From the IMG/VR virus record IMGVR_UViG_3300025141_000071, positions 1-64,000 of that record: DNA of 64,000 nucleotides; one strand, written 5' to 3'. The notes under the pieces are model-generated. The model was not told where the DNA came from and made no database searches. It saw only the letters and a list, made by a program, of their open reading frames with translations. Position 1 is the stretch's first letter, and the number at the start of each line of letters is the position of its first letter. This DNA comes from a virus. This document shows, piece after piece, positions 1 to 48,680 of this stretch. The position numbers and the translations under genes are program-made.

Positions 1-187
1 TAGCAGCGTCCGACAATGTAGTTCGGTTTCGCTAGGCGACCCACACAAAGGCTTCTCTGGCACTTGCCCGTCTTTCTACCCGTGTGCAGTTCGGGGATAC
101 CTCGCATTGACCCAAGGCATTACCCGACGCGTCCATCAAAAGGTTTCGAACCCTAATGATGCTCTCCGTGATTCTATTGTGAAAGAT
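1..187. other. Left-edge stretch without a supported gene
   Basis: I cannot assign these bases. One minus-strand frame stays open across 32-229, but it has no recognised motif, an odd Arg/Cys/Trp-rich tail, and a strong hairpin near its start, so I do not call it a gene. A T-loop-like GTTCGAAAC (minus strand, 143-151) sits in an imperfect CATCA/TGATG hairpin (134-161), but no tRNA cloverleaf can be built around it. Confidence 0.4.
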
Positions 188-212
188 GGGGAGCGTTTTA
201 CGCCCGCTCCCC
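188..212 (-). terminator. Strong hairpin after the leftmost early gene
   Basis: GGGGAGCG pairs perfectly with CGCTCCCC around a 9-base loop. It lies about 20 bases beyond the stop of the gene at 234-632 and is placed to end minus-strand transcription. The U-run that should follow is poor (CATCTTTC), so it may act as an RNA-stabilising or pausing hairpin instead of a classic intrinsic terminator. Confidence 0.55.
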
Positions 213-233
213 AAGGCGATGAAAAACAACCTC

Positions 234-632
234 TCAGTTGATTTCGTCCCCCATCGCTTCGTTGAATTCAGTCTCGGTCATACAACCTTGTTCTGCATCG
301 CTCATTTCAGCGAGTATTCTGAATTGCTCATCAAAGTGTTGGGGCATTTCGTATGCGGTCAGCATTCCATAAAAATCGTTCTCGCCCATCTCGGATTTCA
401 TGTCTCTCTGCAAGCCAATAAGAGCGTTGATAATTATAGCGTTCATAACTTCCACGCCACCCGTTTCAAAGTCGTTGATTGACGCGCCATTGAAGAACCC
501 GTCCTCAATCGCTTTCTTCACATGGTCAGGGGTTTCGTGAAAGAAGTGCATCACAAGCGCATCGGGTAGCCACGCCACAGGGTGGCAAGGGTTGAACTCG
601 CTTTGACGCATAAAGGTGTAGGTTACTTCCAC
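234..632 (-). CDS. Hypothetical acidic early protein, 132 aa
   Basis: Soluble, acidic protein with no family I recognise. The start is a GTG at 632, chosen because an excellent ribosome binding site (AGGAGGAGG) ends 7 bases before it. The start overlaps the end of the zinc-ribbon gene (623-847) by 10 bases, so it is the second gene of a two-gene unit driven by the promoter at 855-882. It therefore uses a Shine-Dalgarno sequence, whereas the leading gene of the unit appears leaderless. The sequence is rich in Met, Glu and Asp with no membrane segment. Function unknown; an early accessory role is inferred only from position. Confidence 0.75.
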   Translation of the reverse strand: MEVTYTFMRQSEFNPCHPVAWLPDALVMHFFHETPDHVKKAIEDGFFNGASINDFETGGVEVMNAIIINALIGLQRDMKSEMGENDFYGMLTAYEMPQHFDEQFRILAEMSDAEQGCMTETEFNEAMGDEIN

Positions 633-847
633 GGCTCAACCTCCTCCTCTGCGCCGAAGATATCATCTTGGCAGTTTTGGCATAGAGCCGAGATAGTGAA
701 CTCTTTACGAGAAACATCATCACGGAAGATACGGGCTTCCCCGTTACAGGAAATGCACTCGGCATTCTCCACACAGAGTTGGCGTGAGCCACCCATCATA
801 GTAGAGAGGAGCGCGTCGATTTGCGGGTCTTTGTTGGTTGCTTTCAT
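623..847 (-). CDS. Small zinc-ribbon phage protein, 74 aa
   Basis: The protein carries two CxxC knuckles, CISC (about residues 31-34) and CQNC (about 56-59), separated by a conserved-looking SRKEFTISALCQNCQD stretch. This layout is typical of a small zinc-ribbon family common in tailed phages, whose function is unknown to me. The start at 847 is supported by a strong promoter whose -10 box ends 7 bases upstream; longer readings of the frame would start upstream of the promoter. It leads a unit with the 132-aa gene downstream. It probably binds one zinc ion and may touch nucleic acid or host protein; this is inference. Confidence 0.85.
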   Translation of the reverse strand: MKATNKDPQIDALLSTMMGGSRQLCVENAECISCNGEARIFRDDVSRKEFTISALCQNCQDDIFGAEEEVEPWK

Positions 848-854
848 GAGGTCT

Positions 855-882
855 ATTATACCATAGTTTTGGGGAATTGCAA
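855..882 (-). promoter_or_regulatory. Early promoter P1 (leaderless type)
   Basis: On the minus strand: TTGCAA (882-877), 16-base spacer ending in an extended -10 TGG, TATAAT (860-855), then 7 bases to the ATG at 847. The expected transcription start is at or next to the start codon. The promoter lies inside the 3' end of the upstream gene. Confidence 0.85.
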
Positions 883-1092
883 GGACTTTCTTGGGGTTTT
901 TCCAAGAAACTTTATGCGGGCGAGAGGGGAATAGGTGAGCTTCGTGCATCCCCACTCTTGCATGATGTTGGTGATGGCGATTCCATAATTCACGCCCCAA
1001 ATCATGCGGATGGTGTTGATGCCGTCGATGATGCGGATGAGACACTTGTCCCCCGTTGCCATCGTGCTGATGTCTAGTCTTCTGTTCTTCAT
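856..1092 (-). CDS. Hypothetical early protein, 78 aa
   Basis: Small basic protein with no family I recognise; it contains an Ile/Met-rich central stretch that may form a hydrophobic core. The start at 1092 is fixed by its promoter, whose TATAAT lies 6 bases upstream, with no Shine-Dalgarno. Its 3' end runs through the promoter of the next gene (855-882), so the coding and regulatory sequences overlap. The C-terminal residues encoded inside that promoter are therefore constrained by it and may not be functional. Confidence 0.7.
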   Translation of the reverse strand: MKNRRLDISTMATGDKCLIRIIDGINTIRMIWGVNYGIAITNIMQEWGCTKLTYSPLARIKFLGKTPRKSLQFPKTMV

Positions 1093-1098
1093 GCGTGT

Positions 1099-1127
1099 AT
1101 TATACCAAGCTGCGGCAGCCGCTGCAA
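1099..1127 (-). promoter_or_regulatory. Early promoter P2 (leaderless type)
   Basis: TTGCAG (1127-1122), 17-base spacer, TGG plus TATAAT (1104-1099), then 6 bases to the ATG at 1092. The spacer contains a GC-rich stretch (CGGCTGCCGCAGC), unlike the other copies. Confidence 0.75.
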
Positions 1128-1176
1128 GAACTTTATCTTAAAAATTCACATGTTTATGTAACCCGTTGTCCCACAT

Positions 1177-1243
1177 GGAGTTATGTTCGCGGGGGGCCCG
1201 CCCCAATCCCCGAATAGAGCCTATATTCAAGCCCTACTCGGGG
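1177..1243 (-). terminator. Tandem GC-rich hairpins after the 1254-1610 gene
   Basis: CCCCGAATAG (1208-1217) and CTACTCGGGG (1234-1243) form a 10-bp stem. In the minus-strand RNA the odd pair becomes a G-U wobble, so the stem is complete only in that direction, matching termination of the gene that stops at 1254. A second GC palindrome (1190-1204) follows. There is no clear U-run. The second element, with its flank GGAGTTA, recurs at 2433-2461. Confidence 0.55.
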
Positions 1244-1253
1244 ATTTGAGCGC

Positions 1254-1610
1254 TTAGCAGTACTCAACCGCAGTGTTACCGCTTCGCCCGTGCTCATCCT
1301 TTTGGTCGATGAAAACCAAGAAGTTCTCCCAATCACCTTGCGATGCGTGGGTGATAAGCATAGGCAGACGGTCTACGGGAATCCAACCCGCCACATCGTA
1401 GGGAAGGACGGCGAAGTCCCCATCGCTATCCATAATAGCGACCTCCATGGTTTGGGTGGGGTCATAGCTCCCACCGTTACGCTTGAAGTCCGCGTTATGG
1501 TTCTCGCTATAAGAACCCGCACCGATGGACACACTCAAGGTGTAGCCGTTAGCGAAATCGAACCGAAGGTTTCGGTTCTCTACAATTTGAATTTTAGTTC
1601 CACTCGTCAT
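1254..1610 (-). CDS. Conserved phage protein of the FxNGYTxSI type, 118 aa
   Basis: The N-terminal half reads NRNLRFDFANGYTLSVSIG, followed by GAGSYSENHN and, later, a MEVAIMDSDGDF strand. This resembles a small family widespread in tailed phages in which an F-x-NGYT-x-SI strand is followed by an aromatic GxGxY turn; its function is not known to me. I place the start at 1610 because GGAGG lies 8 bases upstream. It overlaps the end of the preceding gene (1594-1866) by 17 bases, so the two are probably co-translated from the promoter at 1874-1901. A hairpin follows the stop. Confidence 0.8.
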   Translation of the reverse strand: MTSGTKIQIVENRNLRFDFANGYTLSVSIGAGSYSENHNADFKRNGGSYDPTQTMEVAIMDSDGDFAVLPYDVAGWIPVDRLPMLITHASQGDWENFLVFIDQKDEHGRSGNTAVEYC

Positions 1611-1866
1611 AATCATATCCTCCATAACTTTCGTCCATGCCCCAACCTGCTGAGGCGAAGGCGTCTTCGTCATCACCATCACAGTCGTAATGGTCGTTAC
1701 TGTTTTCCTCACACGCAAGCCCTTCGGCACAGTCGCAGAACTCTTTATGTCCTGCGTCGGTGTAGAATGTTCCGCTATCACAGCAGACGGAGCAAGCGGG
1801 AGCGTTTTCCCCTTCGAAGAGTTCGATAGGAGAGTAAGAACTGTCGTAGTCTTTGATGTTTTCCAT
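1594..1866 (-). CDS. Small Cys-rich acidic protein, 90 aa
   Basis: Contains a cysteine cluster CSVCCDSG followed by FCDCAEG, giving CxxC/CxC spacing like a small zinc knuckle (DnaJ-like CxxCxxG in one place). The C-terminal third is very acidic with Gly and Tyr. I choose the ATG at 1866, not the in-frame ATG nine bases upstream, because the latter overlaps the -10 box and could not be in the transcript. It leads a two-gene unit with 1254-1610. Function unknown; metal binding is inferred from the cysteines. Confidence 0.8.
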   Translation of the reverse strand: MENIKDYDSSYSPIELFEGENAPACSVCCDSGTFYTDAGHKEFCDCAEGLACEENSNDHYDCDGDDEDAFASAGWGMDESYGGYDYDEWN

Positions 1867-1873
1867 GTGTGCC

Positions 1874-1901
1874 ATTATATCAGAGTTTCAGCGAATTGCA
1901 A
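1874..1901 (-). promoter_or_regulatory. Early promoter P3 (leaderless type)
   Basis: TTGCAA (1901-1896), 16-base spacer ending TGA, TATAAT (1879-1874), then 7 bases to the ATG at 1866. Confidence 0.85.
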
Positions 1902-1904
1902 GAA

Positions 1905-2342
1905 CTATTTGAACTTTTTTTCGAATTTCTTAACATTTCCCACCCAATGACGGTTCAACCCGTTCGGGTCATTATCCGCGCCAACGGGGCAGTATTTTGC
2001 GCCTAAGAAAGCGATGAACTCACCCTTACGCCCTGCCTTGACCCATCGGTCATAGTTCTTCTGAACAGTAGCAGAACACCAACCCGCTTGGGAGCGATAG
2101 GTGGGCTTGACGCGAGGGTGCAAGATGCCGTATTCCTTACCCTTTCCACCGTTCTCGGCGTAGCGAATAGAGGCGACGATGGGAGCGAGCTTAGCGCGCA
2201 ACTCGGGGCGAATGTTCACCTCGATAGCATCTTGAAAGGACTCGGCGCAAGCCTTACCGTCTTTGGCTTCAATAGCCTTGAAAGCGTTGGACTGAGCGAG
2301 AGCGGGAGAGGTGAGGCAGAGCAGTAGTGCGATTGTCTTCAT
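1905..2342 (-). CDS. Exported lysozyme-like protein, putative endolysin, 145 aa
   Basis: Residues 1-16 form a clear signal peptide ending in ALA-Q. The mature part has IRYAENGGKGKEYGILHP and then AGWCSATVQKN, RWVKAG, GEFIAFLGAKYCPVGADND and GLNRHWVGNV. I recall this pattern from phage and bacterial lysozyme-like or transglycosylase-like proteins, with the Glu of ENGG as candidate catalytic acid. It likely acts on peptidoglycan after export, either in lysis or in entry. Two cysteines (in AGWCS and KYCPV) could form a disulfide. It has its own promoter (2349-2377) with the same leaderless spacing. The family assignment is from memory and moderately sure; export is better supported. Confidence 0.6.
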   Translation of the reverse strand: MKTIALLLCLTSPALAQSNAFKAIEAKDGKACAESFQDAIEVNIRPELRAKLAPIVASIRYAENGGKGKEYGILHPRVKPTYRSQAGWCSATVQKNYDRWVKAGRKGEFIAFLGAKYCPVGADNDPNGLNRHWVGNVKKFEKKFK

Positions 2343-2348
2343 ATATAT

Positions 2349-2377
2349 ATTATCGGCTATTCTGACCCAAAAATCAA
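2349..2377 (-). promoter_or_regulatory. Variant early promoter for the lysozyme-like gene
   Basis: TTGATT (2377-2372), 17-base spacer, GATAAT (2354-2349), then 6 bases (TA repeats) to the ATG at 2342. It differs from the TTGCAA copies and lacks the TG extension but keeps the leaderless spacing. Confidence 0.6.
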
Positions 2378-2432
2378 CCCCTTTCCCTTAAATATTTTGG
2401 AAATGGGAAAGTTTTAAATGCAGGCGTCATAA

Positions 2433-2461
2433 GGAGTTAGGCGCTCGCGGGGCCGCGCCCC
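2433..2461 (-). terminator. GC-rich hairpin, second copy of the GGAGTTA element
   Basis: GGGGC (2449-2453) pairs with GCCCC (2457-2461) around CGC. It lies 10 bases beyond the stop of the small membrane gene (2471-2578). The flank GGAGTTA plus a CGCGGGG core repeats the element at 1177-1204. No U-run follows, so termination is not certain. Confidence 0.45.
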
Positions 2462-2470
2462 TCAATTTTT

Positions 2471-2578
2471 TCAACCCCAAATAGCCCAAAAGAAGAACGC
2501 GTATATGGGCACGCTCATAACGATAGCCCAGAATATTCCAATGAGGGCGTTGCCCTGTCTAATCTTGGGTCGGCTCAT
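2471..2578 (-). CDS. Tiny membrane protein, 35 aa
   Basis: The frame encodes MSRPKIRQGN followed by an uninterrupted hydrophobic segment of about 24 residues rich in Ile, Phe and Trp (residues 11-34), then a stop. The basic N-terminus and single span suggest an inner-membrane protein with its N-terminus inside. Its ATG overlaps the stop of the upstream gene in an ATGA arrangement (2575-2578), which supports real translation by coupling. A GC hairpin follows. Function unknown; small early membrane proteins of phages often affect host envelope or superinfection, but nothing here proves that. Confidence 0.65.
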   Translation of the reverse strand: MSRPKIRQGNALIGIFWAIVMSVPIYAFFFWAIWG

Positions 2579-2802
2579 AGTGCCCCCAACATTGAGAGTG
2601 TATAACGCAAAACGTCCTCCGCCTCTGTGGCAGAGATGTTGTGTTCATCAGACACATCATAAGAGATTTGCTGAATAGCCGAGTCTTGGTCATGCGACCC
2701 GTCCTCAAGCATGAGAGTGTAATCGTCTAACTTGTTAGGCAGGCATACGTTGATGCCCGCTTTCACAGCGTCACGAACAGTCATTGTTGTGTTGGTTTTC
2801 AT
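2575..2802 (-). CDS. Hypothetical acidic early protein, 75 aa
   Basis: Small acidic protein, probably helical, with a short N-terminal MTVRDAVKAG helix and a C-terminal ATEAEDVLRYTLSML helix. I do not recognise a family. The start at 2802 is set by the promoter (TATAAT 6 bases upstream). It is followed by the tiny membrane gene through an ATGA overlap, so the two form one unit. Confidence 0.75.
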   Translation of the reverse strand: MKTNTTMTVRDAVKAGINVCLPNKLDDYTLMLEDGSHDQDSAIQQISYDVSDEHNISATEAEDVLRYTLSMLGAL

Positions 2803-2808
2803 GTGTGT

Positions 2809-2836
2809 ATTATACCATAGAGTTGAGAGATTGCAA
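2809..2836 (-). promoter_or_regulatory. Early promoter P4 (leaderless type)
   Basis: TTGCAA (2836-2831), 16-base spacer TCTCTCAACTCTATGG, TATAAT (2814-2809), 6 bases to the ATG at 2802. This is close to the consensus of the set. Confidence 0.9.
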
Positions 2837-2853
2837 GGACTTTCGTGGGGTTT

Positions 2854-3111
2854 TTACACCCCGATGAAAGCCTCCCGCGCACAATGGGCATCGTATGAGC
2901 CGTAGCGTGAGCCATCACCATTACGAGGGATAGCGCGTCGTGCGTCCTTGTAGAGGTCGAACAGCAGAGCCGTCTGCGTAGAGGTTGGACTATCAGCGTA
3001 TGCAATGGCGTAAGCCCTCGCAAGGTTGAGTGAGAGTTCATGGGCGTTTTCGACCCAAATAGGAGCGTTGGAAGAGTTGTAATTCAATGCATTGAAGGAG
3101 TTGTATTTCAT
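2854..3111 (-). CDS. Hypothetical early protein, 85 aa
   Basis: Soluble protein with an Asn-rich N-terminus (NALNYNSSNAP) and a helical middle (ENAHELSLNLARAYAIAYA), then a basic stretch (KDARRAIPRNGDGSRYGSYD). No family recognised. The ATG at 3111 is chosen because it lies 6 bases after a perfect TATAAT; upstream in-frame codons fall inside the promoter. Confidence 0.75.
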   Translation of the reverse strand: MKYNSFNALNYNSSNAPIWVENAHELSLNLARAYAIAYADSPTSTQTALLFDLYKDARRAIPRNGDGSRYGSYDAHCAREAFIGV

Positions 3112-3117
3112 GAGTAT

Positions 3118-3145
3118 ATTATACCATAGAGTTGAGAGATTGCAA
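3118..3145 (-). promoter_or_regulatory. Early promoter P5 (leaderless type)
   Basis: TTGCAA (3145-3140), 16-base spacer identical to that of P4, TATAAT (3123-3118), 6 bases to the ATG at 3111. Confidence 0.9.
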
Positions 3146-3152
3146 GCACTTT

Positions 3153-3284
3153 CTAGAAAAAGTTTTTGATTGTTGAGCCTAGCCCGATGATGATGTTCCC
3201 CACGATGAGGAAACACTGCCCGATAGGCTGAGAGAAGATGATGAGGGCGATGCCTAAGGCACAGGATTTGAGGTGTTGTTTCAT
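3153..3284 (-). CDS. Small membrane protein, 43 aa
   Basis: The frame gives MKQHLKSCALGIALIIFS, a short QPIGQ break, then CFLIVGNIIIGLG and a basic, aromatic tail (KNFF). It has either one long or two short hydrophobic segments with a positively charged N-terminus, so it is probably an inner-membrane protein or an exported peptide. It is small enough to be missed by length filters, but it has its own perfect leaderless promoter (3291-3318), which strongly supports it. Function unknown. Confidence 0.7.
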   Translation of the reverse strand: MKQHLKSCALGIALIIFSQPIGQCFLIVGNIIIGLGSTIKNFF

Positions 3285-3290
3285 GCGTGT

Positions 3291-3318
3291 ATTATACCAT
3301 AGTCTGAGAGGATTGCAA
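3291..3318 (-). promoter_or_regulatory. Early promoter P6 (leaderless type)
   Basis: TTGCAA (3318-3313), 16-base spacer, TGG plus TATAAT (3296-3291), 6 bases to the ATG at 3284. Confidence 0.9.
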
Positions 3319-3319
3319 G

Positions 3320-3520
3320 CTAAAACCAAGATTTATTTTTCTTGTCTGAGATGAGGTTGCGCCGAGCTTCTAGGCTGTCCCAATCTGCCTCGTCCATCCA
3401 TTCGATGACCTCATAGGCTATTTCGCGCCTGTCCATGTCTGAGAGCTTGGCGTTAGGCGTAGGAGGGAATATGTAAGCGGTACAAAGCATACCGAGGAGG
3501 AAGGCGATTAGAGATTTCAT
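3320..3520 (-). CDS. Membrane-anchored or exported early protein, 66 aa
   Basis: Residues 1-17 (MKSLIAFLLGMLCTAYI) form a signal peptide or anchor; the rest is acidic and polar (DMDRREIAYEVIEWMDEADWDSLEARRN) and likely helical, facing the periplasm. A cysteine at residue 13 lacks a good lipobox. The start at 3520 is fixed by its promoter 6 bases upstream. No family recognised. Confidence 0.75.
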   Translation of the reverse strand: MKSLIAFLLGMLCTAYIFPPTPNAKLSDMDRREIAYEVIEWMDEADWDSLEARRNLISDKKNKSWF

Positions 3521-3526
3521 GTGTGT

Positions 3527-3554
3527 ATTATACCATAGCCTAGCGAGATTGCAA
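3527..3554 (-). promoter_or_regulatory. Early promoter P7 (leaderless type)
   Basis: TTGCAA (3554-3549), 16-base spacer, TGG plus TATAAT (3532-3527), 6 bases to the ATG at 3520. Confidence 0.9.
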
Positions 3555-3722
3555 GACATTTTCCCAAAAATCTTTGGAAACTATGCCAACTTTTCTGGAG
3601 TCGATACGGTCGAGAGCCATACCTGCCTCAAGATAGCCACGGCTACCCTCAGCGATGAGCTTGCGCGTGTCTTGGAGAACGCCTGCCTTGGCGTAGAGGA
3701 CGAAGGTCTGTTTGTTTTTCAT
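3540..3722 (-). CDS. Hypothetical basic early protein, 60 aa
   Basis: Small basic protein (MKNKQTFVLYAKAG start, then helical RKLIAEGSRGYLEAGMALDRID). No membrane segment and no family recognised. Its 3' end overlaps the promoter of the next gene. It is the first of the minus-strand early block when read from the right, with its own promoter 6 bases upstream. Confidence 0.75.
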   Translation of the reverse strand: MKNKQTFVLYAKAGVLQDTRKLIAEGSRGYLEAGMALDRIDSRKVGIVSKDFWENVLQSR

Positions 3723-3728
3723 GTCTAC

Positions 3729-3756
3729 ATTATACCATATCCCTCAGAGATTGCAA
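3729..3756 (-). promoter_or_regulatory. Early promoter P8 (leaderless type)
   Basis: TTGCAA (3756-3751), 16-base spacer, TGG plus TATAAT (3734-3729), 6 bases to the ATG at 3722. This is the rightmost member of the array. Confidence 0.9.
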
Positions 3757-3920
3757 GCACTTTCTCGGTTTTATTTTTCTCACAGCGGAGAATTCCACGC
3801 TTTGGGTCCCATGCGGTGGAGCGGAATGGGCATTACATCCGTAGGACCCATGCTTTTCTATAAGGGACTCCTACAAAAATTTAAAACAAAAAAAGGGACT
3901 CCAGAACTACATATGTTGTT
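3757..3920. other. Junction between the early minus block and plus genes
   Basis: Divergent junction. It holds a 23-codon minus-strand frame (3780-3851) with a weak -10-like TTATAG six bases before its ATG, an inverted repeat TGGGTCC/GGACCCA, and two copies of AAGGGACTCC about 31 bases apart. None of these is strong enough to call as a gene or operator by itself. Confidence 0.4.
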
Positions 3921-4205
3921 ATGAAAAAATTCAAAGAATATGCACCTATGGTGCTCGCCGTTGTCACCCTGCTCTTAGTGGGTTCCCTTAAAATGGATTC
4001 ATGCCAAGCTAAGAAAGGACATGCTAAGTTTATGAAGATGCAGCAACGCTCATCCCACTCTACCCAACGTCCCTCCCGTCTAGACCCTTCAACAGGTGGT
4101 GCTTACAGGAACGAAGACGCAAGGAAAGGACGCGGTGCAAAGCGCGGTTCCCGTGGAGACCGTGGCGAAGGTGCTTGGAAGAAGCGCGAAAAGAAAATAA
4201 ACTAA
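3921..4205 (+). CDS. Membrane-anchored basic protein, 94 aa
   Basis: Residues 9-24 form one hydrophobic segment (MVLAVVTLLLVGSL), preceded by KKFKEY. The remainder is extremely basic and disordered (GRGAKRGSRGDRG, WKKREKK). The likely topology is a short cytoplasmic N-terminus with a basic tail outside, or a secreted polycationic peptide. No family recognised. It is the first plus-strand gene after the early block and converges with groES, whose stop lies 3 bases away. Confidence 0.6.
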   Translation: MKKFKEYAPMVLAVVTLLLVGSLKMDSCQAKKGHAKFMKMQQRSSHSTQRPSRLDPSTGGAYRNEDARKGRGAKRGSRGDRGEGAWKKREKKIN

Positions 4206-4207
4206 GG

Positions 4208-4483
4208 TTAAAGAATCGCCAAAACGTCGGTATCGGCCATAATCAAAACCGTTTCACCTTCGTAGCTGATTTCAGAACCTGCGAAGGGCGGGAATAGCAC
4301 CATATCCCCTGGAGATACTTCCATAGGAATAAGCTTCCCGTCCTGGTATAACCCTTTCCCTGTCGCTACCACTTCCCCTTCATTGGGTTTCTCCTGGGAA
4401 TCTGTTGTGAGGATAATCCCTCCTGCGGATTCTTTTGCCATTTCGGCTCTTTTAACGATAATGTTGTTTCTTAGGGGTTTCAT
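4208..4483 (-). CDS. groES: Phage GroES/Hsp10 co-chaperonin
   Basis: A 91-aa protein colinear with bacterial GroES: the KPLRNNIIVKR first strand, the AGGIILTTDSQEKP mobile loop with its GroEL-binding IIL, EGEVVATGKG, PGDMVLFPPFAGSEI, and the C-terminal DTDVLAIL. It should cap the host GroEL ring. By analogy with T4 gp31 it would help fold the major capsid protein, but unlike T4 gp31 its sequence is plainly of the cellular GroES type. One base separates it from the upstream gene (4485-4838), so they are co-transcribed. Confidence 0.92.
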   Translation of the reverse strand: MKPLRNNIIVKRAEMAKESAGGIILTTDSQEKPNEGEVVATGKGLYQDGKLIPMEVSPGDMVLFPPFAGSEISYEGETVLIMADTDVLAIL

Positions 4484-4484
4484 T

Positions 4485-4838
4485 TTATCTTCCGTGGGTT
4501 GTCGCTTTCTTAATAGCGGCTTTTAAATCCTTGTATTCCTTGCGGATGAGAAGAGGTTTATCCTCTTCCTCGAACCACACAAGGCAGGCGTAATCATTTT
4601 TTTTCGAATCTTCGAAACGCACGATGCGTCGAATGGAGTCGATGTTCAGAAGAACCTCTGCCATCTCTCCGTTTAACTTATATGTAAAGGACCCATCCTG
4701 GGTGATGAGATATGGTTGGTCCATCACTTCAATAAATCCAGGGAACACATCACCTCTGTGGTTAACCTTCTTGAGGATGATGTCCGAGTGCTGTGGCGTA
4801 AGTAGAACTGCCGCTGCTGTAAGTATAAAAGTCTTCAT
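4485..4838 (-). CDS. Hypothetical exported protein upstream of groES, 117 aa
   Basis: The N-terminus (MKTFILTAAAVLLTPQHS) looks like a signal peptide, though its h-region is short. The rest is rich in beta-strand patterns and ends with a Lys-rich helix (YKDLKAAIKKATTHGR). No family recognised. It leads the groES unit. On the minus strand TATAAT (4849-4844) lies 5 bases before its ATG, so the transcript should have almost no leader. Confidence 0.65.
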   Translation of the reverse strand: MKTFILTAAAVLLTPQHSDIILKKVNHRGDVFPGFIEVMDQPYLITQDGSFTYKLNGEMAEVLLNIDSIRRIVRFEDSKKNDYACLVWFEEEDKPLLIRKEYKDLKAAIKKATTHGR

Positions 4839-4841
4839 AGG

Positions 4842-4870
4842 CTATTATAGTAATTGGAGTACCTATATAA
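4842..4870. promoter_or_regulatory. Divergent AT-rich promoter region
   Basis: CTATTATAG (4842-4850) is nearly palindromic and reads TATAAT toward the minus gene at 4838. TATATAA (4864-4870) is a second -10-like box facing the plus gene, 16 bases before its TTG start. No -35 is apparent for either. Confidence 0.5.
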
Positions 4871-4886
4871 CTCGGAGAATAAAAAT

Positions 4887-5444
4887 TTGTCGAAAAAACC
4901 CGAACCCCTAGAGCCTAAGGAGGCTGTAAAAATGATAGAAGACGAGCTAGAACGCAAGAACTCTCAGCAAGCTCAGCAAACCAGAGCACCACACAACGGT
5001 GATATGGCTGCGAAGGAAGCTGAACTTCTCGGAAGCACTAAAGAGGCTATTCAATTACGCAAAGCAGAGATTGATGGTGAGATTCGCCTAAGGAAAGCTA
5101 ACCTGCGTGGTGAAATTGATACCATTAAAGCGACTGAAACTGCCAAAGAAAAAGCAGGTAAACACCTTGCGGTGTTTGGTGCACTGTATTTGTGTACCTG
5201 CGTGATTGGGTTTCTCATCGCTATGAGTGTCTTACCTGAAGCGTCTGTTGCAATTGCGGCTACACTCATCACATTAGTGGTGACTCAGCTTGCAGGGATT
5301 CTTAAAACGGTTGTGGATACTAAGGAGCCGAAAGACCCGACTCAGCTTATGTCCGAGATAGTGCATGCTCAAATGGGCAATATGGACTATGACTCGTTTA
5401 AGACTACCCAAAAGCCTGACGAAGTTAAAACCAAGCTTAAGTAA
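4887..5444 (+). CDS. Two-span membrane protein with helical N-terminus, holin candidate
   Basis: The first ~100 residues are charged and helical (RKAEIDGEIRLRKANLRGE), likely coiled coil. Two hydrophobic segments follow (about 106-125 and 133-153), then a polar tail. I chose the TTG at 4887 because GGAG lies 9 bases before it and earlier in-frame codons are implausible. It is joined to the nuclease gene by a TAATG overlap. Two closely spaced spans are compatible with a holin or another inner-membrane protein, but nothing decides it. Confidence 0.6.
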   Translation: MSKKPEPLEPKEAVKMIEDELERKNSQQAQQTRAPHNGDMAAKEAELLGSTKEAIQLRKAEIDGEIRLRKANLRGEIDTIKATETAKEKAGKHLAVFGALYLCTCVIGFLIAMSVLPEASVAIAATLITLVVTQLAGILKTVVDTKEPKDPTQLMSEIVHAQMGNMDYDSFKTTQKPDEVKTKLK

Positions 5445-5785
5445 TGTACAAGTATTACATAACTGTCCTTCGTGTAATTGACGGGGACACCATAGATGCT
5501 ATGGTTGACCTAGGATTCGATATTTGGATTAAAAAACGAATTCGTTTCCTAGGTATTGACGCTCCTGAAACTAGAACACGCAATGCAGAGGAAAAGAAAC
5601 GTGGTCTCCTAGCTACAGAGCGCGTGCGCGAAGTTCTGCGTGAGAACGAGATGAAGGCAGAGCTTATCTCTCACGGAGTGGGTAAGTTTGGGCGTGTCCT
5701 AGGGGTTATTAAAGTGAAATCGAGTAAGGATTCACTGAACGACCTCCTGGTCGCGGAGGGTCTTGCGGAAATTTATCCCGAGTAA
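5444..5785 (+). CDS. Thermonuclease (staphylococcal nuclease family)
   Basis: A 113-aa SNase-fold protein. The catalytic and calcium-binding pattern is complete: D13 and D15 in DGDT, R34 in RIRFLG, D39 and E42 in GIDAPE, and R84 in GKFGRVLG, matching the spacing of staphylococcal nuclease (D21, R35, D40, E43, R87). There is no signal peptide, so it should act in the cytoplasm, for example in degrading host DNA or RNA. The start overlaps the upstream stop in TAATG. Its 3' end overlaps the convergent dCMP deaminase gene by 77 bases. Confidence 0.88.
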   Translation: MYKYYITVLRVIDGDTIDAMVDLGFDIWIKKRIRFLGIDAPETRTRNAEEKKRGLLATERVREVLRENEMKAELISHGVGKFGRVLGVIKVKSSKDSLNDLLVAEGLAEIYPE

Positions 5786-6188
5786 ACTCTACGGTTATTC
5801 CGCATCGACGTAAAAACTCTACTCCACTTAAATCGGAGTACTCAGACCCACACACCACTCTTCGGATGCCCGACTGAATAATCAGCTTGGCGCATTGAAA
5901 GCAGGGGGAGAGAGTGACGTAAAGTGTGGCACCGTCACTACTCTGAGTCCCCCGTGCAAGTTTTGTTAACGCATTCGACTCTGCGTGGAGAACCTCAGGG
6001 AGTGTTTCTCCGTCTGGTCCCTCACAGCCGTTTGAGAAGCCGTGTGGCGTTCCGTTGAAGCCATCGGAGATAATCTGCTCGTCCTTAACTACGAGCGCTC
6101 CTACCTGCTTACGTGTGGCTGGGGAGAGTAAGCTCCATCGCCACGCCATATCCATGTAGGCTAAATCTAATGCTTTTTGACTAGCCAT
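5709..6188 (-). CDS. Deoxycytidylate (dCMP) deaminase
   Basis: A 159-aa zinc-dependent deaminase. The zinc site is H68-A-E70 (HAESN) and C96-x-x-C99 (PCFQC). The DGFNGTPHGFSNGCEG and SEYSD regions are typical of phage and cellular dCMP deaminases. It makes dUMP from dCMP for thymidylate synthesis and so supplies dTTP. It lies downstream of nrdJ and a small zinc protein in one minus-strand unit with short overlaps, forming a nucleotide-metabolism cassette. Confidence 0.92.
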   Translation of the reverse strand: MASQKALDLAYMDMAWRWSLLSPATRKQVGALVVKDEQIISDGFNGTPHGFSNGCEGPDGETLPEVLHAESNALTKLARGTQSSDGATLYVTLSPCFQCAKLIIQSGIRRVVCGSEYSDLSGVEFLRRCGITVEFTRDKFPQDPPRPGGRSVNPYSISL

Positions 6189-6390
6189 CTTCTTTAATAA
6201 ATTCTAATAGGGTTGCAACCGCCTCGTAGACTTTGTCATCAGCTAGGAACCCATCTTTATTGGTTTCAGGGAGACGCTCATGGAGTTCGTCAAGCACAAC
6301 AGCAATAGCTTCTTTGTACTGGGTTACTTTACAGGCTAAAATTTGGTGGGTAACCATATTAGTGTTCCCACAATATCCGCATTTACTCAC
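6181..6390 (-). CDS. Small CxxC protein between nrdJ and dCMP deaminase, 69 aa
   Basis: Begins MSKCGYCGN with a single CxxC; a third cysteine follows at residue 20. The rest is helical and acidic. It overlaps dCMP deaminase by 8 bases and nrdJ by 4 bases, so it is translated with them. It could be a zinc-binding accessory protein or a thiol protein serving the reductase, but I recognise no family; this is inference from position. Confidence 0.7.
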   Translation of the reverse strand: MSKCGYCGNTNMVTHQILACKVTQYKEAIAVVLDELHERLPETNKDGFLADDKVYEAVATLLEFIKEDG

Positions 6391-8291
6391 AGTTCACACA
6401 TCCCATCTTTGCATGTATCGACCCCATCGGAACGCTCTTCGTACTTTCCTTCGTCGATAAGCTTATCTAAATCGAGGTTTCTAAAGTCCACAGCCGTGAG
6501 AGGCTCATTACCCCGCGAACCTGCGCGGTAAAAGGTGAACCCTTTCATCTCATTAGCGTAATCAATTAAGTTTTGTTTTACAGCCTCGGTAGCTTTGTAC
6601 TCAGTAGGCAAGTTACATGTCTTCGATACAGCTGAGTCAATGAAGCTTTGAACGACGGCTTGAACCTTAATGTGTTCTTCTGGTGTAACATCATAAGCGC
6701 CCACGCAGTGAGTAACGTCTCGTCCTTCTTTGTGGAGTTTGGAGAACAGTGCATCGACGACATACGTTTCGTTCCATACTCCATCAGTGCCAGTACGCCA
6801 CCTACGCTTGTATACAGGAGCAAAAATAGGCTCAAGACCAGTAGATGTCCCAAGAACCATACTGATTGTACCAGTAGGAGCAACAGTAAGGAGCACTGCG
6901 TTACGAAGTCCCTTGCTGCGGATGTCGTTGCGGAGGCGAGAAGGTAAGGTTTGGAAGTACTTTTCATCTTTTAGTTGAGTCCAATCATAGGCAGGAAACG
7001 AGCCTTTTTCATCACCGAGCGAACAAGACGCCTTATACGCCTCATTTCTGATAGTCCCGAACAAACGTTCGAGGAATTCTAAACAATTATCCGAACCATA
7101 GCGGTATCCCGCCTTGATTAGGAAATAATGGAGTCCCGTAATACCCAAACCGATGCGTCGGGACTTCAAACCAGCGTCTTTACACTCCGTAATTGGAAAA
7201 TGATTGACAGAAAGGATGTTATCAAGGAATCTTACACCCAAACGCACCGTGCGAGCCAATTTTTTCCAATCAATTTTTCCATCATCACTCACCATATTGG
7301 AAAGATTGACGTGTCCGAGGCAACAATTACCATAATTAGGCAAAACTTCCTCCCCGCAAGGGTTTGTGGAAGGCATGTGCTCGAAATAAGACACATTTGT
7401 GAACTCATTGGCGAAATCAATGTTAAAAATTCCAGGTTCGCCCGACTCAATCGCGTTTTCTACGAGCCGACCCCATAATTCTTTGGCTGAAATGTAAATT
7501 TTAGATGCATTTTCGAATTTATCGGCGTAATGCTTCTTATGGAAGGTCGCAGCGCGACCAAGTGCGTCCTCTTCATCAAGAGCAACCACCTTAACAGTGT
7601 CATCTCCCTCTTCGGAGATGCGATGAACCTCGTATTGGAAGAATTTTTGGTGACGACCACCCCAAGTGAAGTACCATTCGGAGTCATTTTCCACTGCTTC
7701 AACGAAAGTTTTGGTGATTGCCACCGAAATGTTGAAGTTTGTAAGCTCCTTACGGTCCAACTTGACGTCAAGGAACTCCAAGAGGTCAGGATGGGTGATG
7801 TTTAGGATAGACATCAACGCCGTACGACGATTCTTACCTGCGCGTACGTGGTTTCCAATCTCGTTAATCATACGCATCACAGAAATTGCACCTGGGGCGC
7901 TATTCTTGATGTTTCCGATGTCGTTTCCTTTAGGTCTAATATTACTAAAATTGAACCCTATACCCCCACCACCGCAGGAGATACGATACATATCGGATAT
8001 GGTCTTACCAATACTATCCACAGAATCCTCTGGGTCCAGAACATAACAGTTAAGGAGATTCTGATGAGAGCGTCCCGACCCAAAAAGGATGCGACCGCCT
8101 GGGCAAAAGTCACCTGAACGGATAGAGTCGTAAAACTTCTTCTCTACGGAGACTCTTTTTTCATCCCCCTCTGCGCCTGCCGCGTGGGAAGCAACTCGCT
8201 TAGCGCACTCCTTCCATGTTTTTTCACCTGGAAATGCATACTTTTCCATGAAGATTTGATGGCCTAAGCCTTTGGGTTCGAAATTATTCAT
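6387..8291 (-). CDS. nrdJ: Adenosylcobalamin-dependent (class II) ribonucleotide reductase
   Basis: A 634-aa class II RNR. Key features are C82 (NLLNCYV), the thiyl-radical Cys C312 in NPCGE (310-314) with E314, cysteines C323/C324 eleven to twelve residues later as in thermophilic NrdJ, LTVAPTGTISM, and the C-terminal redox pair CKDGMCEL. No small radical-generating subunit is nearby, as expected for class II. It reduces ribonucleotides to deoxyribonucleotides using B12. It leads the cassette with the CxxC protein and dCMP deaminase. A CTATTATG-type box lies upstream (8329-8339). Confidence 0.93.
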   Translation of the reverse strand: MNNFEPKGLGHQIFMEKYAFPGEKTWKECAKRVASHAAGAEGDEKRVSVEKKFYDSIRSGDFCPGGRILFGSGRSHQNLLNCYVLDPEDSVDSIGKTISDMYRISCGGGGIGFNFSNIRPKGNDIGNIKNSAPGAISVMRMINEIGNHVRAGKNRRTALMSILNITHPDLLEFLDVKLDRKELTNFNISVAITKTFVEAVENDSEWYFTWGGRHQKFFQYEVHRISEEGDDTVKVVALDEEDALGRAATFHKKHYADKFENASKIYISAKELWGRLVENAIESGEPGIFNIDFANEFTNVSYFEHMPSTNPCGEEVLPNYGNCCLGHVNLSNMVSDDGKIDWKKLARTVRLGVRFLDNILSVNHFPITECKDAGLKSRRIGLGITGLHYFLIKAGYRYGSDNCLEFLERLFGTIRNEAYKASCSLGDEKGSFPAYDWTQLKDEKYFQTLPSRLRNDIRSKGLRNAVLLTVAPTGTISMVLGTSTGLEPIFAPVYKRRWRTGTDGVWNETYVVDALFSKLHKEGRDVTHCVGAYDVTPEEHIKVQAVVQSFIDSAVSKTCNLPTEYKATEAVKQNLIDYANEMKGFTFYRAGSRGNEPLTAVDFRNLDLDKLIDEGKYEERSDGVDTCKDGMCEL

Positions 8292-8328
8292 ATTTTTTAT
8301 TTTTGGGGACCTATTTGAGTTGCTCGTA

Positions 8329-8380
8329 CTACATAATAGAACTTAGCGAGACATTTTTGCGCTCGATTGCCTATTATATA
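8329..8380. promoter_or_regulatory. Divergent promoter region between nrdJ and a lipoprotein gene
   Basis: On the minus strand CTATTATGTAG (8339-8329) could serve nrdJ, 38 bases upstream of its ATG. On the plus strand CTATTATATA (8371-8380) lies 5 bases before the ATG at 8386. Neither has a clear -35. Confidence 0.45.
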
Positions 8381-8385
8381 TCACT

Positions 8386-8685
8386 ATGTGGAAACAAATT
8401 CTAACTAAAATTAATGCAAGCTTGCTTGCCAATTGGAGCCAACTTGTTTGGTTTGTTGTGGGTGCCCTTGTAGGCACTATTTTGCTCGGCGGACTTGTAA
8501 GCTGCTCTACTGTAGAGCGGGCTGAGGAAGCTGTAGGTTCCGTTGATGACACGATTCGTGAGGTGCCTGTTTTAGGTGCTGTTTATGCGATTCCGTCTGA
8601 TGTGGTTGGGGGAGTTTATGGGCTTGGTGAAAGCGTCGTTGAAGGCGCTGTCGAGCTTGTTACTCCTGACAAAGACGAAGAGTAA
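8386..8685 (+). CDS. Predicted lipoprotein, 99 aa
   Basis: A hydrophobic segment (about residues 21-37) leads to LGGLVSC-S, a good lipobox, so the mature protein would start at the cysteine and be lipid-anchored. The remaining ~60 residues are acidic and Val/Gly-rich (VERAEEAVGSV, AIPSDVVGGVYGLGESVVEGAVELV). An outer-membrane spanin-like role is possible but the sequence is not Pro-rich. A strong terminator follows directly. It is a single-gene unit with a -10 box 5-8 bases upstream. Confidence 0.65.
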   Translation: MWKQILTKINASLLANWSQLVWFVVGALVGTILLGGLVSCSTVERAEEAVGSVDDTIREVPVLGAVYAIPSDVVGGVYGLGESVVEGAVELVTPDKDEE

Positions 8686-9781: not shown

Positions 9782-10404
9782 ATTGGGATAACTTAACTCC
9801 TATGGACGTGGGTGACCTTCCTATAAACGTTCAGGAAAACTACGAGAAACACGCGGTCAGATTACCTTGTGATATATCTCCTTATCAGATAAATCGCTTT
9901 CAAGTGGGAACTGGTGCTTCTGGCGTAACTGAGACTTCTGCTGTTTATGCTTTAGGCGCTCCGCTTGAAGATGGTAAGTATGGAGGGAGCGCGAGAAGCG
10001 TAGATGTAGAGAATGCTCTTTTATATCTTCGGGAAGATACGCCTCTTGAGGAACAAGCTTTTGTGAAGTTAGAAAGGCAAGGACAGCTTGGGACTTCCTC
10101 CTTGGTATCTGTTGTTTTCCTAGACGAGCAGACTGCGAACGGGATTAAGATTGATGAGGTTGGTCTTTTTGTAGATAACCCCTTTCTATATTTTAAATAT
10201 GGGTCTACACTTGGCGTAGCCCCCGCAAACTTTTCTCAGTTGGGTGGGGGAGCAACCGCATCTGGCGCGGTTGGAACTCCTGACCCCGAACGACCTGGGC
10301 ATTTATTAGCCGCATACAGACAGATAACGCCCGTTCAAAAAGAAAGTTACTTCTCCCTAATGATACGTTGGACAATTAACTTTAGCGTGGACAGAGACCT
10401 TTAA
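9778..10404 (+). CDS. Tail protein, C-terminal half paralogue of 44236-44817, 208 aa
   Basis: Residues about 33-70 (ISPYQINRFQVGTG, GAPLEDGKYGG) and the C-terminal region (GIKIDEVGLFVDNP, LLAAYRQITPVQKESYFSLM, IRWTINF) align with the 193-aa tail protein at 44236, which has IAPFQITYFQLGSG, GITINEVGLFSKNP, YLCAYRYFTPLAKQDSFSVL and FRWTIEF. With the preceding gene it looks like a divided, expanded copy of that protein. Function is probably structural at the tail tip. Its stop overlaps the stop of the convergent gene 10401-10721 within TTAA. Confidence 0.75.
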   Translation: MNWDNLTPMDVGDLPINVQENYEKHAVRLPCDISPYQINRFQVGTGASGVTETSAVYALGAPLEDGKYGGSARSVDVENALLYLREDTPLEEQAFVKLERQGQLGTSSLVSVVFLDEQTANGIKIDEVGLFVDNPFLYFKYGSTLGVAPANFSQLGGGATASGAVGTPDPERPGHLLAAYRQITPVQKESYFSLMIRWTINFSVDRDL

Positions 10405-10734: not shown

Positions 10735-11256
10735 GTGAAGAAAAAAGTTTTGTCAATATTTGGAGATGAATTTTTCCCCAAAAACGCGAAAGGGATGTCC
10801 GCTCGTAAACGACAGAAGTGCGTGGATAAGCTTATTGAGTTCTTTAAGCAGACTAGACCCGACTTGGTTTACATTATGCCGACAAAAGGGACCTGTTCCT
10901 TTGTAACTGTATTATGCTCTATCCTACAAATCCCATACATTATGGTTTCCCCGTACCCTAATTTTTATGAGAACGTTCTTATAGACGATAAAATTTGTAT
11001 TCGACAGGCTATGGATAAAGCTAAAACGTTTGTTTTAATGGATGATGAGGTACCTGAAACCATAGAAGATGGGGTGGGGTTATACGAGAAGGGGGTAGAC
11101 TTTCTGTGTAAGGTGTCAGATGCTGTTGTATTCTTTTATAGTAAAGATACTACCCGAGAATACCATTCCTTTATGGATAAGACGGGCTCTTCTGTGAAAC
11201 ACCACCAAAATATCTGGGAATTAGTATATGATGGCAGGCAGGTGCTTAGCGAATGA
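10735..11256 (+). CDS. Rossmann-like (SLOG-like) small protein, 173 aa
   Basis: Alternating strands and helices: VLSIFGDEFF, then CVDKLIEFFKQTRPDLVYIMPTKGTCSFVTVLCS and LQIPYIMVSPYPNF, then DAVVFFYSKDT. This resembles proteins of the SLOG/YpsA type that bind nucleotides, where a G-rich turn and a helper-like PY-x-x-x-SP follow each other, but the match is weak. It starts with GTG directly after the divergent element. The 3' end overlaps the convergent glycosyltransferase gene by 36 bases. Function unknown. Confidence 0.55.
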   Translation: MKKKVLSIFGDEFFPKNAKGMSARKRQKCVDKLIEFFKQTRPDLVYIMPTKGTCSFVTVLCSILQIPYIMVSPYPNFYENVLIDDKICIRQAMDKAKTFVLMDDEVPETIEDGVGLYEKGVDFLCKVSDAVVFFYSKDTTREYHSFMDKTGSSVKHHQNIWELVYDGRQVLSE

Positions 11257-11919
11257 GTTCGCTACCTTAGGAATATCCTTAGCGTAAGCGGCGTCATAAC
11301 TTCCCCCCGATGCGTGTCTAAGAGAGAGGGGCGCAATATGGTTAGTTCGTCCTCCTAAATAGGCTTGGAAGGTCATCCATGTATCATAGTGGTGCCACTT
11401 AGCATTCCAAGCCGCTGGGCTCCGTAATTTAATTCGAAGGAGAACGTCCCCTTTACATGCCAAAAATACTCCGTCTAAGGTTACCGCAGTTTGTTTAGGC
11501 CCAAAAGCGCTTATGTTCATGGATTCATGGTCGGCTCCATGGTATATGCTTCCCCCTCCACTATTATTACGTAATGCACAAGCATACCAATTAATCTCCT
11601 CGGTTAGATGGCTGGTTCCTGCAACCCCCACAAACCCCGTGGTTGAATCTTTTAGTTTGGCATCCAAGACTCCCATAAAAACTTCACGGTTATTTAAAAC
11701 TTCAATATCGTCATGGCAAAAAATAACATAATCTTTAAAAGTAACCCCGCATTCCTCTATGCCCGTCCGCAATGCTCCCAACATGGACTCCGCTTGCCTG
11801 ATAAAATGAACTTCCCACCCTGCTTTAGTAAGAAAATCATTTAATTTCCCTACAGTCGTAGCTTTATTCTTGCAATCAGTAACCGATTCTCGTGTTGGTA
11901 TGATAGCATAACGTTTCAT
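11221..11919 (-). CDS. GT-A-type glycosyltransferase, 232 aa
   Basis: The N-terminus (MKRYAIIPTRES, then KAGWEVHFIRQ) is followed by DYVIFCHDDIEVLN at about residues 68-81, a typical DxD-like metal and sugar-nucleotide motif. Further on are GVAGTSHL, TLDGVFLACKGDVLL and HHYDTWMTFQAYLGG, as in family-2-like glycosyltransferases. It could glycosylate phage DNA, a virion protein or host surface sugars; the sequence does not say which. The start at 11919 is chosen beside the 13-bp divergent element shared with terL. Confidence 0.75.
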   Translation of the reverse strand: MKRYAIIPTRESVTDCKNKATTVGKLNDFLTKAGWEVHFIRQAESMLGALRTGIEECGVTFKDYVIFCHDDIEVLNNREVFMGVLDAKLKDSTTGFVGVAGTSHLTEEINWYACALRNNSGGGSIYHGADHESMNISAFGPKQTAVTLDGVFLACKGDVLLRIKLRSPAAWNAKWHHYDTWMTFQAYLGGRTNHIAPLSLRHASGGSYDAAYAKDIPKVANSFAKHLPAIIY

Positions 11920-11932
11920 GCTATATAATAGC
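11920..11932. promoter_or_regulatory. 13-bp palindromic divergent promoter-like element
   Basis: GCTATATAATAGC, an almost perfect palindrome, is the entire space between the minus glycosyltransferase ATG and the plus terminase GTG. It reads TATATAAT toward terL and TATTATATAG toward the glycosyltransferase gene. No -35 is visible on either side. Confidence 0.65.
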
Positions 11933-47800: not shown

Positions 47801-48680
47801 ATCTCTTAATTACGACACAAATGATATTGAGTTTTCTTGTGTTGGAAGTAGAACGCATATGTGGAACATAGCTGACACGTCTAGGGTTCACGCTGCAAAC
47901 TTACTTATTAACTCGCTGCCGCCTGAAACGGCTTGCGTTGGAAGTACATGGCATGGACCTACAGGAAGATGGTATAATGGCGCAGCCTGCGATTATTACG
48001 GAAAGTTTGGCTTGGCCGCAAGCGCTTTCCAAGCATGTTCGATTGAAATAGCGCAGGTAGATGGCTTTTATAACCTAGGAATCTTCCGCGTGGTGGGGTC
48101 TAACAGAGGGTACTTAAAAACGTATACCGAAGTGGCTTATGACGGGTATCCCGTAAGGTCTCAATATTTTGGAGGAGGTTCTCCTTTAGACCAGTGCGGG
48201 GGTCAAGGGTATCAGACCATGTTTGATGTAGCGATTAATACCTCAGGAATTGAGGATATTATTGCTTATCATGTGGGCTTAGAATATGGAACTACCTCAG
48301 GCACTGAACCTGTTTTTGGTCGCGGGTTAGCTGGTACTCCTAATCAAGTAGGAAAAATGAACGGTCTTATTACCCATGCTCCTATGACAGAAGGAAAGGG
48401 AATGCTCTGGGATGTAGGACAATTACACCCTCAAATGCCTGTACCGCCTCTCCACTTAGGGTGGCAAGGATATATGAGAAACTGGATTGATGAGTCTGCT
48501 GCGAGCGTATTCGCTAACGCCAAACACGCTGCCAATAAGAAGGTAAACTTACTTTCAATTTATCGTTCTACCACAAACGGGTCTAAAGGCGGAGAGGGTA
48601 GAGACACCTTGGGCGGCAATCCTACCTACGGGGTGGGCGTTCGTTCGCTAAACATGTTTGATTTGGACAGGTTGGTATAA
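44817..48680 (+). CDS. Beta-helix tail fibre A with short Thr-rich spacer, 1287 aa
   Basis: The N-terminal docking region (FYNWEQDNLPLLDLETRSDV) and following GVYQTVQEALEVVPRRLTIPVLIEI belong to a module shared with fibre B. A long right-handed beta-helix-like section follows (DILLENVSITRVKKTG, NFVVYRIYD, KITFSGPTKISRYG). A Thr-rich spacer lies at about residues 900-965. The C-terminal ~320 residues (HMWNIADTSRVHAANL, GPTGRWYNGAACDYYGKFGL, GGEGRD) are again shared with fibre B. It is a likely receptor-binding or depolymerase fibre; no catalytic residues can be named. Linked by TAATG. Confidence 0.75.
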   Translation: MNRNYTYFDIEGGGQSFSGYGFPEVYKHDASGFYNWEQDNLPLLDLETRSDVFKQYLGLDSSLTGVTLTVSADAPKSASSTGVYQTVQEALEVVPRRLTIPVLIEICDFGNLGELELKDINAEGEGGLQITCRQYLEEIYAQPTFLSGSYEYGPSAWQNQPTQMVASSFQSDLSSASSTGLSISCSAVEPWNRHTRMFFQKANNSQDEANSLSFSPWPRPEGQEFSSGGTLSAINFYGYSETDDITVRQDADPRAAGGSLFRQRLPLLTTDRGVTFAYGAYFRKIKITNCSRVKLQNICVDSASGADFEYPNNTQFLCDTGIEVNNSDILLENVSITRVKKTGLLLDNSKVCTAKNFVVYRIYDRTVNQERTSDGVGVYAVDSNVIFDARETSGTAYNTDAAGVYITSISKCGVGIEGINSQIAGGAKSNSVTNTEPKNAGGTPLDMTGDWNTTHLTCFANTTGIKLHNSTLDYDGRPSVFCNIKGVDALQSNIFLPQFSVDYNQDEGFYLSKSYLGYGKFSSYFADAGSCSATQGAPRPKPAYCADYNGINVHADKGSSVSPVADCSAINNLDMWGGGWPGTGYSDSTQLAMSNHKTDAPAILVSDSSDAEMVQLVVANPATAGGVAGKCARAEKNSSLVIRGTEKGATGLGSYGPIDSLGGLESNWTTAATCADDNSKITFSGPTKISRYGIAVLAQNNSEMNFGPPGTPGTMNVPDPVRYGLDSSSNHTMVDLHSTRACVVASNKSIVNMESLGGSALEPASSVDTQALSALSSLYTSATSGSFVRFSPNGFTENAQGTAQLDASFFDTFTRTALQGIDDDEHRMASTGGMCVRAVGSSHVNANLVNFKFGMEGSSISGVMYNYNGLGCEYDGTTTSGITDSITTDLCDLVSDCCDPITTTASTASTQSTTASTLWTSTWDTTDATTSTDATTTEATTTEATTTGTDVPTTTTTTSTTTTMTNTYRTPPTETWDPERFEVGAANTLQTNQNESLNYDTNDIEFSCVGSRTHMWNIADTSRVHAANLLINSLPPETACVGSTWHGPTGRWYNGAACDYYGKFGLAASAFQACSIEIAQVDGFYNLGIFRVVGSNRGYLKTYTEVAYDGYPVRSQYFGGGSPLDQCGGQGYQTMFDVAINTSGIEDIIAYHVGLEYGTTSGTEPVFGRGLAGTPNQVGKMNGLITHAPMTEGKGMLWDVGQLHPQMPVPPLHLGWQGYMRNWIDESAASVFANAKHAANKKVNLLSIYRSTTNGSKGGEGRDTLGGNPTYGVGVRSLNMFDLDRLV
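47512..47718 (+). repeat. Thr-rich low-complexity spacer in fibre A
   Basis: About 69 codons dominated by ACT/ACC (Thr) with Ala, Glu and Ser, including tandem GAGGCTACCACTACT units (TEATTTEATTT). It joins the beta-helix to the C-terminal head domain. A ~50-base piece (near 47637-47687) is nearly identical to part of fibre B. Confidence 0.85.

Follow-up and report, generated by a model that had tools for sequence, protein, structure and literature searches.

Repeated early-promoter elements lying between small variable genes are known from the T4-type phages, as the promoter-early-stem-loop (mobile regulatory) cassettes, and phage transcripts that begin at their own start codon are known as well, the middle and late genes of the Thermus phage P23-45 reportedly being leaderless. 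Such leaderless mRNAs are often initiated by an undissociated 70S ribosome, and their translation favours AUG. The lambda cI mRNA has been named as a leaderless phage mRNA (PMC9031893), leaderless genes whose -10 box lies some 10-12 bases before the start codon occur widely among bacteria (PMC3160421; PMC12340547), and the early promoters of T4 have strong -35, TGn and -10 elements (PMC2988021). Here we describe an array of promoters set directly against the start codons of small genes, on the minus strand of a stretch of viral DNA (hereafter the window) that comprises 64,000 of the 66,262 bases of one IMG/VR virus record (IMGVR_UViG_3300025141_000071). Each unit of this array very probably yields a leaderless mRNA starting at the AUG.

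A direct scan located TATAAT 6 bases ahead of the minus-strand ATGs at 1092, 2802, 3111, 3284, 3520 and 3722, and 7 bases ahead of those at 847 and 1866. The -35 box is TTGCAA with a 16-base spacer (N16) in seven of these eight promoters and TTGCAG with N17 in that of ATG 1092, while TGn precedes the -10 box in all eight, the three elements being near consensus throughout. The preliminary description had spoken of nine near-identical promoters, and for eight of them both the likeness and the details given (TTGCAA or TTGCAG, a 16-17-base spacer, TGn-TATAAT and 6-7 bases to the ATG) were borne out; the ninth does have the TTGATT and GATAAT boxes reported for it, at a like distance (N17, N6), but it is weaker (a 9/12 match) and has diverged too far to be called near-identical, though canonical -35 and -10 boxes stand at the equal distance in many relatives. 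The usual place of a Shine-Dalgarno (SD) motif ahead of the leading ATGs is filled by the -10 box, and SD motifs are present at the downstream genes 632 (GAGGAGG) and 1610 (GGAGG). The units are composed as follows, all promoters except the ninth being placed by the direct scan; open reading frame is abbreviated ORF and amino acids aa.

855-882, minus: promoter TTGCAA-N16-TATAAT, N7 to ATG 847
623-847, minus: leading gene, 74 aa, no SD; nine homologues are likewise promoter-led
234-632, minus: second gene of the 847 unit, 132 aa, GTG start, SD GAGGAGG
1099-1127, minus: promoter TTGCAG-N17-TATAAT, N6 to ATG 1092
856-1092, minus: leading gene, 78 aa
1874-1901, minus: promoter TTGCAA-N16-TATAAT, N7 to ATG 1866
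1594-1866, minus: leading gene, 90 aa
1254-1610, minus: second gene of the 1866 unit, 118 aa, ATG start, SD GGAGG, as read from the sequence
2349-2377, minus: ninth, diverged promoter TTGATT-N17-GATAAT, N6 to ATG 2342
1905-2342, minus: ninth leading gene, 145 aa, conserved across 35 viral loci
2809-2836, minus: promoter TTGCAA-N16-TATAAT, N6 to ATG 2802
2575-2802, minus: leading gene, 75 aa
3118-3145, minus: promoter TTGCAA-N16-TATAAT, N6 to ATG 3111
2854-3111, minus: leading gene, 85 aa
3291-3318, minus: promoter TTGCAA-N16-TATAAT, N6 to ATG 3284
3153-3284, minus: leading ORF, 43 aa; array-led homologue not found
3527-3554, minus: promoter TTGCAA-N16-TATAAT, N6 to ATG 3520
3320-3520, minus: leading gene, 66 aa; 71% identity to a G005 array gene, with a ratio of nonsynonymous to synonymous polymorphism (pN/pS) of 0.26
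3729-3756, minus: promoter TTGCAA-N16-TATAAT, N6 to ATG 3722
3540-3722, minus: leading ORF, 60 aa; array-led homologue not found

Exact TTGCAA-N16-TATAAT has seven matches in the entire 66,262-base record, every one inside the array, and the pattern read backwards has none. By the preliminary description, absence of the motif upstream of genes elsewhere in the genome would count against the claim; no copy indeed occurs in the record outside the array, but the claim stands, because the motif belongs to a single promoter class that is restricted to one region. A generic sigma70 scan of window positions 1-8500 gave 19 sites, against 9.7 +/- 3.4 in shuffled sequences.

The layout recurs in relatives whose promoter sequences have changed. 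Two relatives found by their capsid proteins, G016 (101,674 bases, capsid 76-78% identical) and G005 (82,710 bases, 90%), carry minus-strand arrays of about ten promoters (777-3322) and about twelve promoters (50.7-57.3 kb), respectively; nearly all of these stand 6-7 bases ahead of an ATG, with diverged spacers and -35 boxes (TTGCAA, TTGACN, TGGACA). The array probably extends beyond the left edge of the record, because G016 and a near-identical contig, G001, also start inside it. For a wider comparison, 35 loci were collected from IMG/VR via the ninth-gene protein alone, the promoter not being a criterion, and these hold 148 distinct strong promoters, 108 of which lie exactly 6-7 bases ahead of an ATG. 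The distances are sharply distributed (86 at 6 bases, 22 at 7, one at 8, two at 9 and none at 10-21), the remainder comprising a few at 0-2 and 22-59 and 19 without an ATG-led ORF in reach, and the chance that an ORF of 28 codons or more opens with an ATG 6 or 7 bases from a random position in the relatives' loci is P = 0.014. The identical scan of partial control genomes, the first 50 kb each of T4, cyanophage S-SSM2 and Pelagibacter phage HTVC008M, returned 20 promoters that are followed by an ATG-led ORF at no more than 60 bases, only one of them (in S-SSM2) at 6-7. The orthologue of the ninth gene has a canonical or near-canonical promoter 6-7 bases ahead of its ATG in about 21 of the 35 loci, and TGn is present in 82 of the relatives' 134 promoter-ATG junctions. 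Pattern scans of IMG/VR yielded 32 contigs, the window counted, with at least three such promoters; many of them have terminase or portal-region genes about 45-55% identical to those of G016 and the window, so the layout is characteristic of a broad clade of uncultured T4-like phages.

The distances bear on a first alternative, by which short intergenic space in a compact genome is alone responsible for bringing promoters against ATGs and the leading genes are translated from read-through mRNAs. The units are indeed tightly packed, ORF 856-1092 ending within the promoter of the next unit. Packing would nevertheless yield neither the sharp peak at 6-7 bases with its trough at 8-21 nor the C that precedes the ATG (see below), and a read-through mRNA would still lack an SD at the leading ATGs, so we regard this explanation as very unlikely.

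Sigma70 RNA synthesis starts about 7 bases past the -10 box, which leaves no room for a leader, and its preferred initiation context is C at -1 and A at +1. The base ahead of the ATG is C in 124 of the 134 junctions (93%) and in 48 of 241 control genes (20%; p about 5e-46), and since the junction sequences are related and not independent, p-values such as this one overstate the evidence. This count was redone on the unbiased loci, an earlier one made on pattern-retrieved sequences having been discarded because two of the patterns demanded C. Given this C and the A that follows it, transcription would seem to start on the A of the ATG, and even an RNA starting right after the -10 box would have at most 6-7 bases of leader, too short for a usable SD. 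The suggestion of the preliminary description that transcripts begin at or beside the ATG, leaderless initiation being systematic in this region, is thus strongly supported by comparison, through the 6-7-base distance kept in diverged relatives, the C(-1)/A(+1) context, the almost exclusive use of AUG and the SD motifs, which leading genes lack and internal genes commonly have.

A second alternative is that the true starts lie further downstream, behind SD motifs, and that the ATG is merely part of the promoter's initiator. Sigma70 likes a purine at +1 after C, and CA may consequently arise without any translation. This would hardly account for a whole ATG, found at 6-7 bases 134 times against three GTGs, or for the richness in AAA at the second codon (73/134 junctions versus 21/241 control genes). 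Furthermore, 168 of 373 alignments between homologues start from the first residue of both proteins, and among 135 pairs pN/pS has a low median (0.34) and never reaches 1, although selection of the pairs by protein similarity biases these values downward. Mis-called starts seem to us even less credible than packing.

As judged by these comparisons, the array genes are conserved and under purifying selection: 183 of 259 array-led ORFs have homologues that are array-led too, as do six of the eight window ORFs. Their functions are hardly indicated by profile searches, as Pfam gave no matches and PHROG matched just a single unknown family and, weakly, a baseplate/lysozyme model. The description of leading genes without SD and second genes (632, 1610) with one also holds in the relatives, where SD-like motifs precede 21 of 130 leading genes versus 19 of 29 internal array genes. 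Some orthologues of the ninth gene have no promoter at the ATG and an SD-like motif instead (AAGGAG in L342 and L343, GGAG in L332 and L346, GAGG in L337 and L338). In the relatives, 34 of 171 promoters of the same type have no ATG-led ORF at 6-7 bases, which might suggest that the promoters drive small regulatory RNAs and that the ORFs are incidental, but conserved coding starts at the ATG in most units, several of the 34 have a leader with an SD (L321 1488, L331 5618, L342 6851) and no Rfam family was found in the window, which makes this the least credible explanation of all.

We therefore favour leaderless transcription of each array unit. The host RNA polymerase with its main sigma factor would bind the near-consensus -35, TGn and -10 elements and begin the transcript on the A of the ATG or on the base before it, giving an RNA with a 5'-terminal AUG and no SD, on which a ribosome, often an undissociated 70S, would initiate, while the downstream genes of each unit would use ordinary SD sites. 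We infer from sequence both the RNA start at the ATG and the mode of ribosome initiation there. Early use of the promoters by host sigma70 is likewise suggested, the term early being drawn from the sigma70 consensus, the position of the promoters and the resemblance to T4-type early regions. Several points weigh against this model. The RNA 5' ends of these phages are predicted from sequence, and the sigma factor of the host and its handling of leaderless mRNA may differ from what is assumed here. Read-through from upstream units could add longer mRNAs. Window ORFs 3284 (43 aa) and 3722 (60 aa) have no array-led homologue among the 259 array-led ORFs, and in some loci the ninth-gene orthologue lacks both a promoter at its ATG and a recognizable SD.

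The window carries T4-type structural genes on its plus strand, e.g., terminase and major capsid protein, and a search of 50,697 annotated phage records gave no near match to its DNA; only uncultured viral contigs yielded close relatives. Cyanophage proteins match its capsid protein at about 31% identity, and since capsid and terminase identity to isolates is just about 31-34%, no host can be assigned from isolates. The best relative in genome collections (capsid 53%) is a 130,604-base contig (L301-L307) of the Prochlorococcus single-cell assembly AG-409-P03, which has promoters of the array layout at both ends. PF00124 was not found on this contig, nor in G000, G016 or G005, and a co-sorted particle is possible, so Prochlorococcus is no more than a possible host. 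A phage-like contig in an Anaerolineae metagenome-assembled genome has TAGACA promoters, just some of them at 6 bases, and does not clearly represent this system. Within a 1620-aa plus-strand protein of the window (48680-53542) lies a long Thr-rich repeat stretch (51460-52359).

Further observations concern the arrays and their surroundings. GC-rich inverted repeats occupy gaps between window units (1199-1252 and about 2430-2470) and are perhaps terminators; similar GC-rich blocks also sit between the units of G016. Across the array loci, including L122 and L037, the -35 classes differ in spacing, TTGAC being followed by N17 in 71 of 85 cases and TTGCA by N16 in 23 of 34 (p about 1e-7), and the two classes nearly alternate along the arrays of G016 and L037. 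The flank of the G005 array (L130 9729-10914, minus strand) holds a tRNA-Ile, a match to the Pistol ribozyme (10096-10172) and, at 10832-10914, a short match resembling transfer-messenger RNA (tmRNA).

A second motif, C-TAT[A/T]AT-N5-ATG without a -35 box, peaks 5 bases ahead of middle and late genes in this phage group, with 21 cases of TATAAT at 5 bases versus mostly 1-6 at other distances above 7. Sites include window 4838-4849 and 11919-11930 (both minus strand), L125 14455, L126 1636 and L129 19569, among others, and may represent a late promoter that is also nearly leaderless. G016 encodes a divergent putative sigma factor (L126 17720-18304; PHROG 351, E 5e-4), a candidate late sigma. 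It is conceivable, though we offer the idea tentatively and think it rather less than probable, that the clade fuses promoters to start codons genome-wide, with a putative early sigma70 class at 6-7 bases and the C-TAT[A/T]AT class, perhaps read by a phage late sigma, at 5 bases before middle and late genes, many first genes thus being leaderless and the promoter-ATG serving as a recombination landing pad for small early genes.

What the phage would gain from the layout could be 70S initiation, a lesser need for ribosomal protein S1, or modularity. S1 and S2 are required for leadered mRNA and are mildly inhibitory for leaderless mRNA (PMC9031893). Modularity is possible because the promoter ends in the start codon, so that recombination between copies could swap whole ORFs without breaking expression, and the promoter repeats and variable gene content are no more than compatible with this idea. 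If leaderless expression of the array is confirmed, it would offer a natural setting in which to study why a virus dispenses with the leader (whether for 70S initiation, a lesser S1 dependence or easy gene swapping) though the phage otherwise uses SD motifs. Gene callers that reward an SD may overlook or mis-start such small genes, which the promoter-N6-ATG signature locates directly in uncultured viruses.

Both leaderless genes and early promoters of the T4 type are familiar, and their combination appears unreported: the literature searched, outside which most subscription papers lay, yielded no account of an early phage array that is leaderless and forms a conserved, clade-wide region. Like the TA-led genes of bacteria (PMC3160421), including those of Deinococcus-Thermus (PMC12340547), the array shows a peaked -10 position a few bases from the start, no SD and an AUG start, with SD-led genes elsewhere in the genome; unlike them, it adds a near-consensus -35 and an extended -10, and its units lie side by side in a phage genome. 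It has in common with the T4 early promoters (PMC2988021) a T4-type phage context, strong -35, TGn and -10 elements ahead of small genes and, presumably, recognition by the host polymerase, but a T4-type leader between transcription start and start codon is not seen in the array, and in the scanned stretch of T4 the distance from promoter to ATG-led ORF is 25-49 bases (1 in a single case) and never 6-7. Lambda cI and, reportedly, P23-45 likewise have transcripts beginning at AUG, in single genes or other temporal classes and in other hosts, and neither is known to present an array of near-identical promoter-ATG units like that of this T4-type phage. The promoter-early-stem-loop cassettes resemble the array in placing repeated promoter elements amid small variable genes. 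They differ from it in that most array promoters have no adjoining stem-loop (one inverted repeat, 1199-1252, was found in 600-3900 at a minimum length of 18), and in that the repeated unit of the array ends in an ATG.

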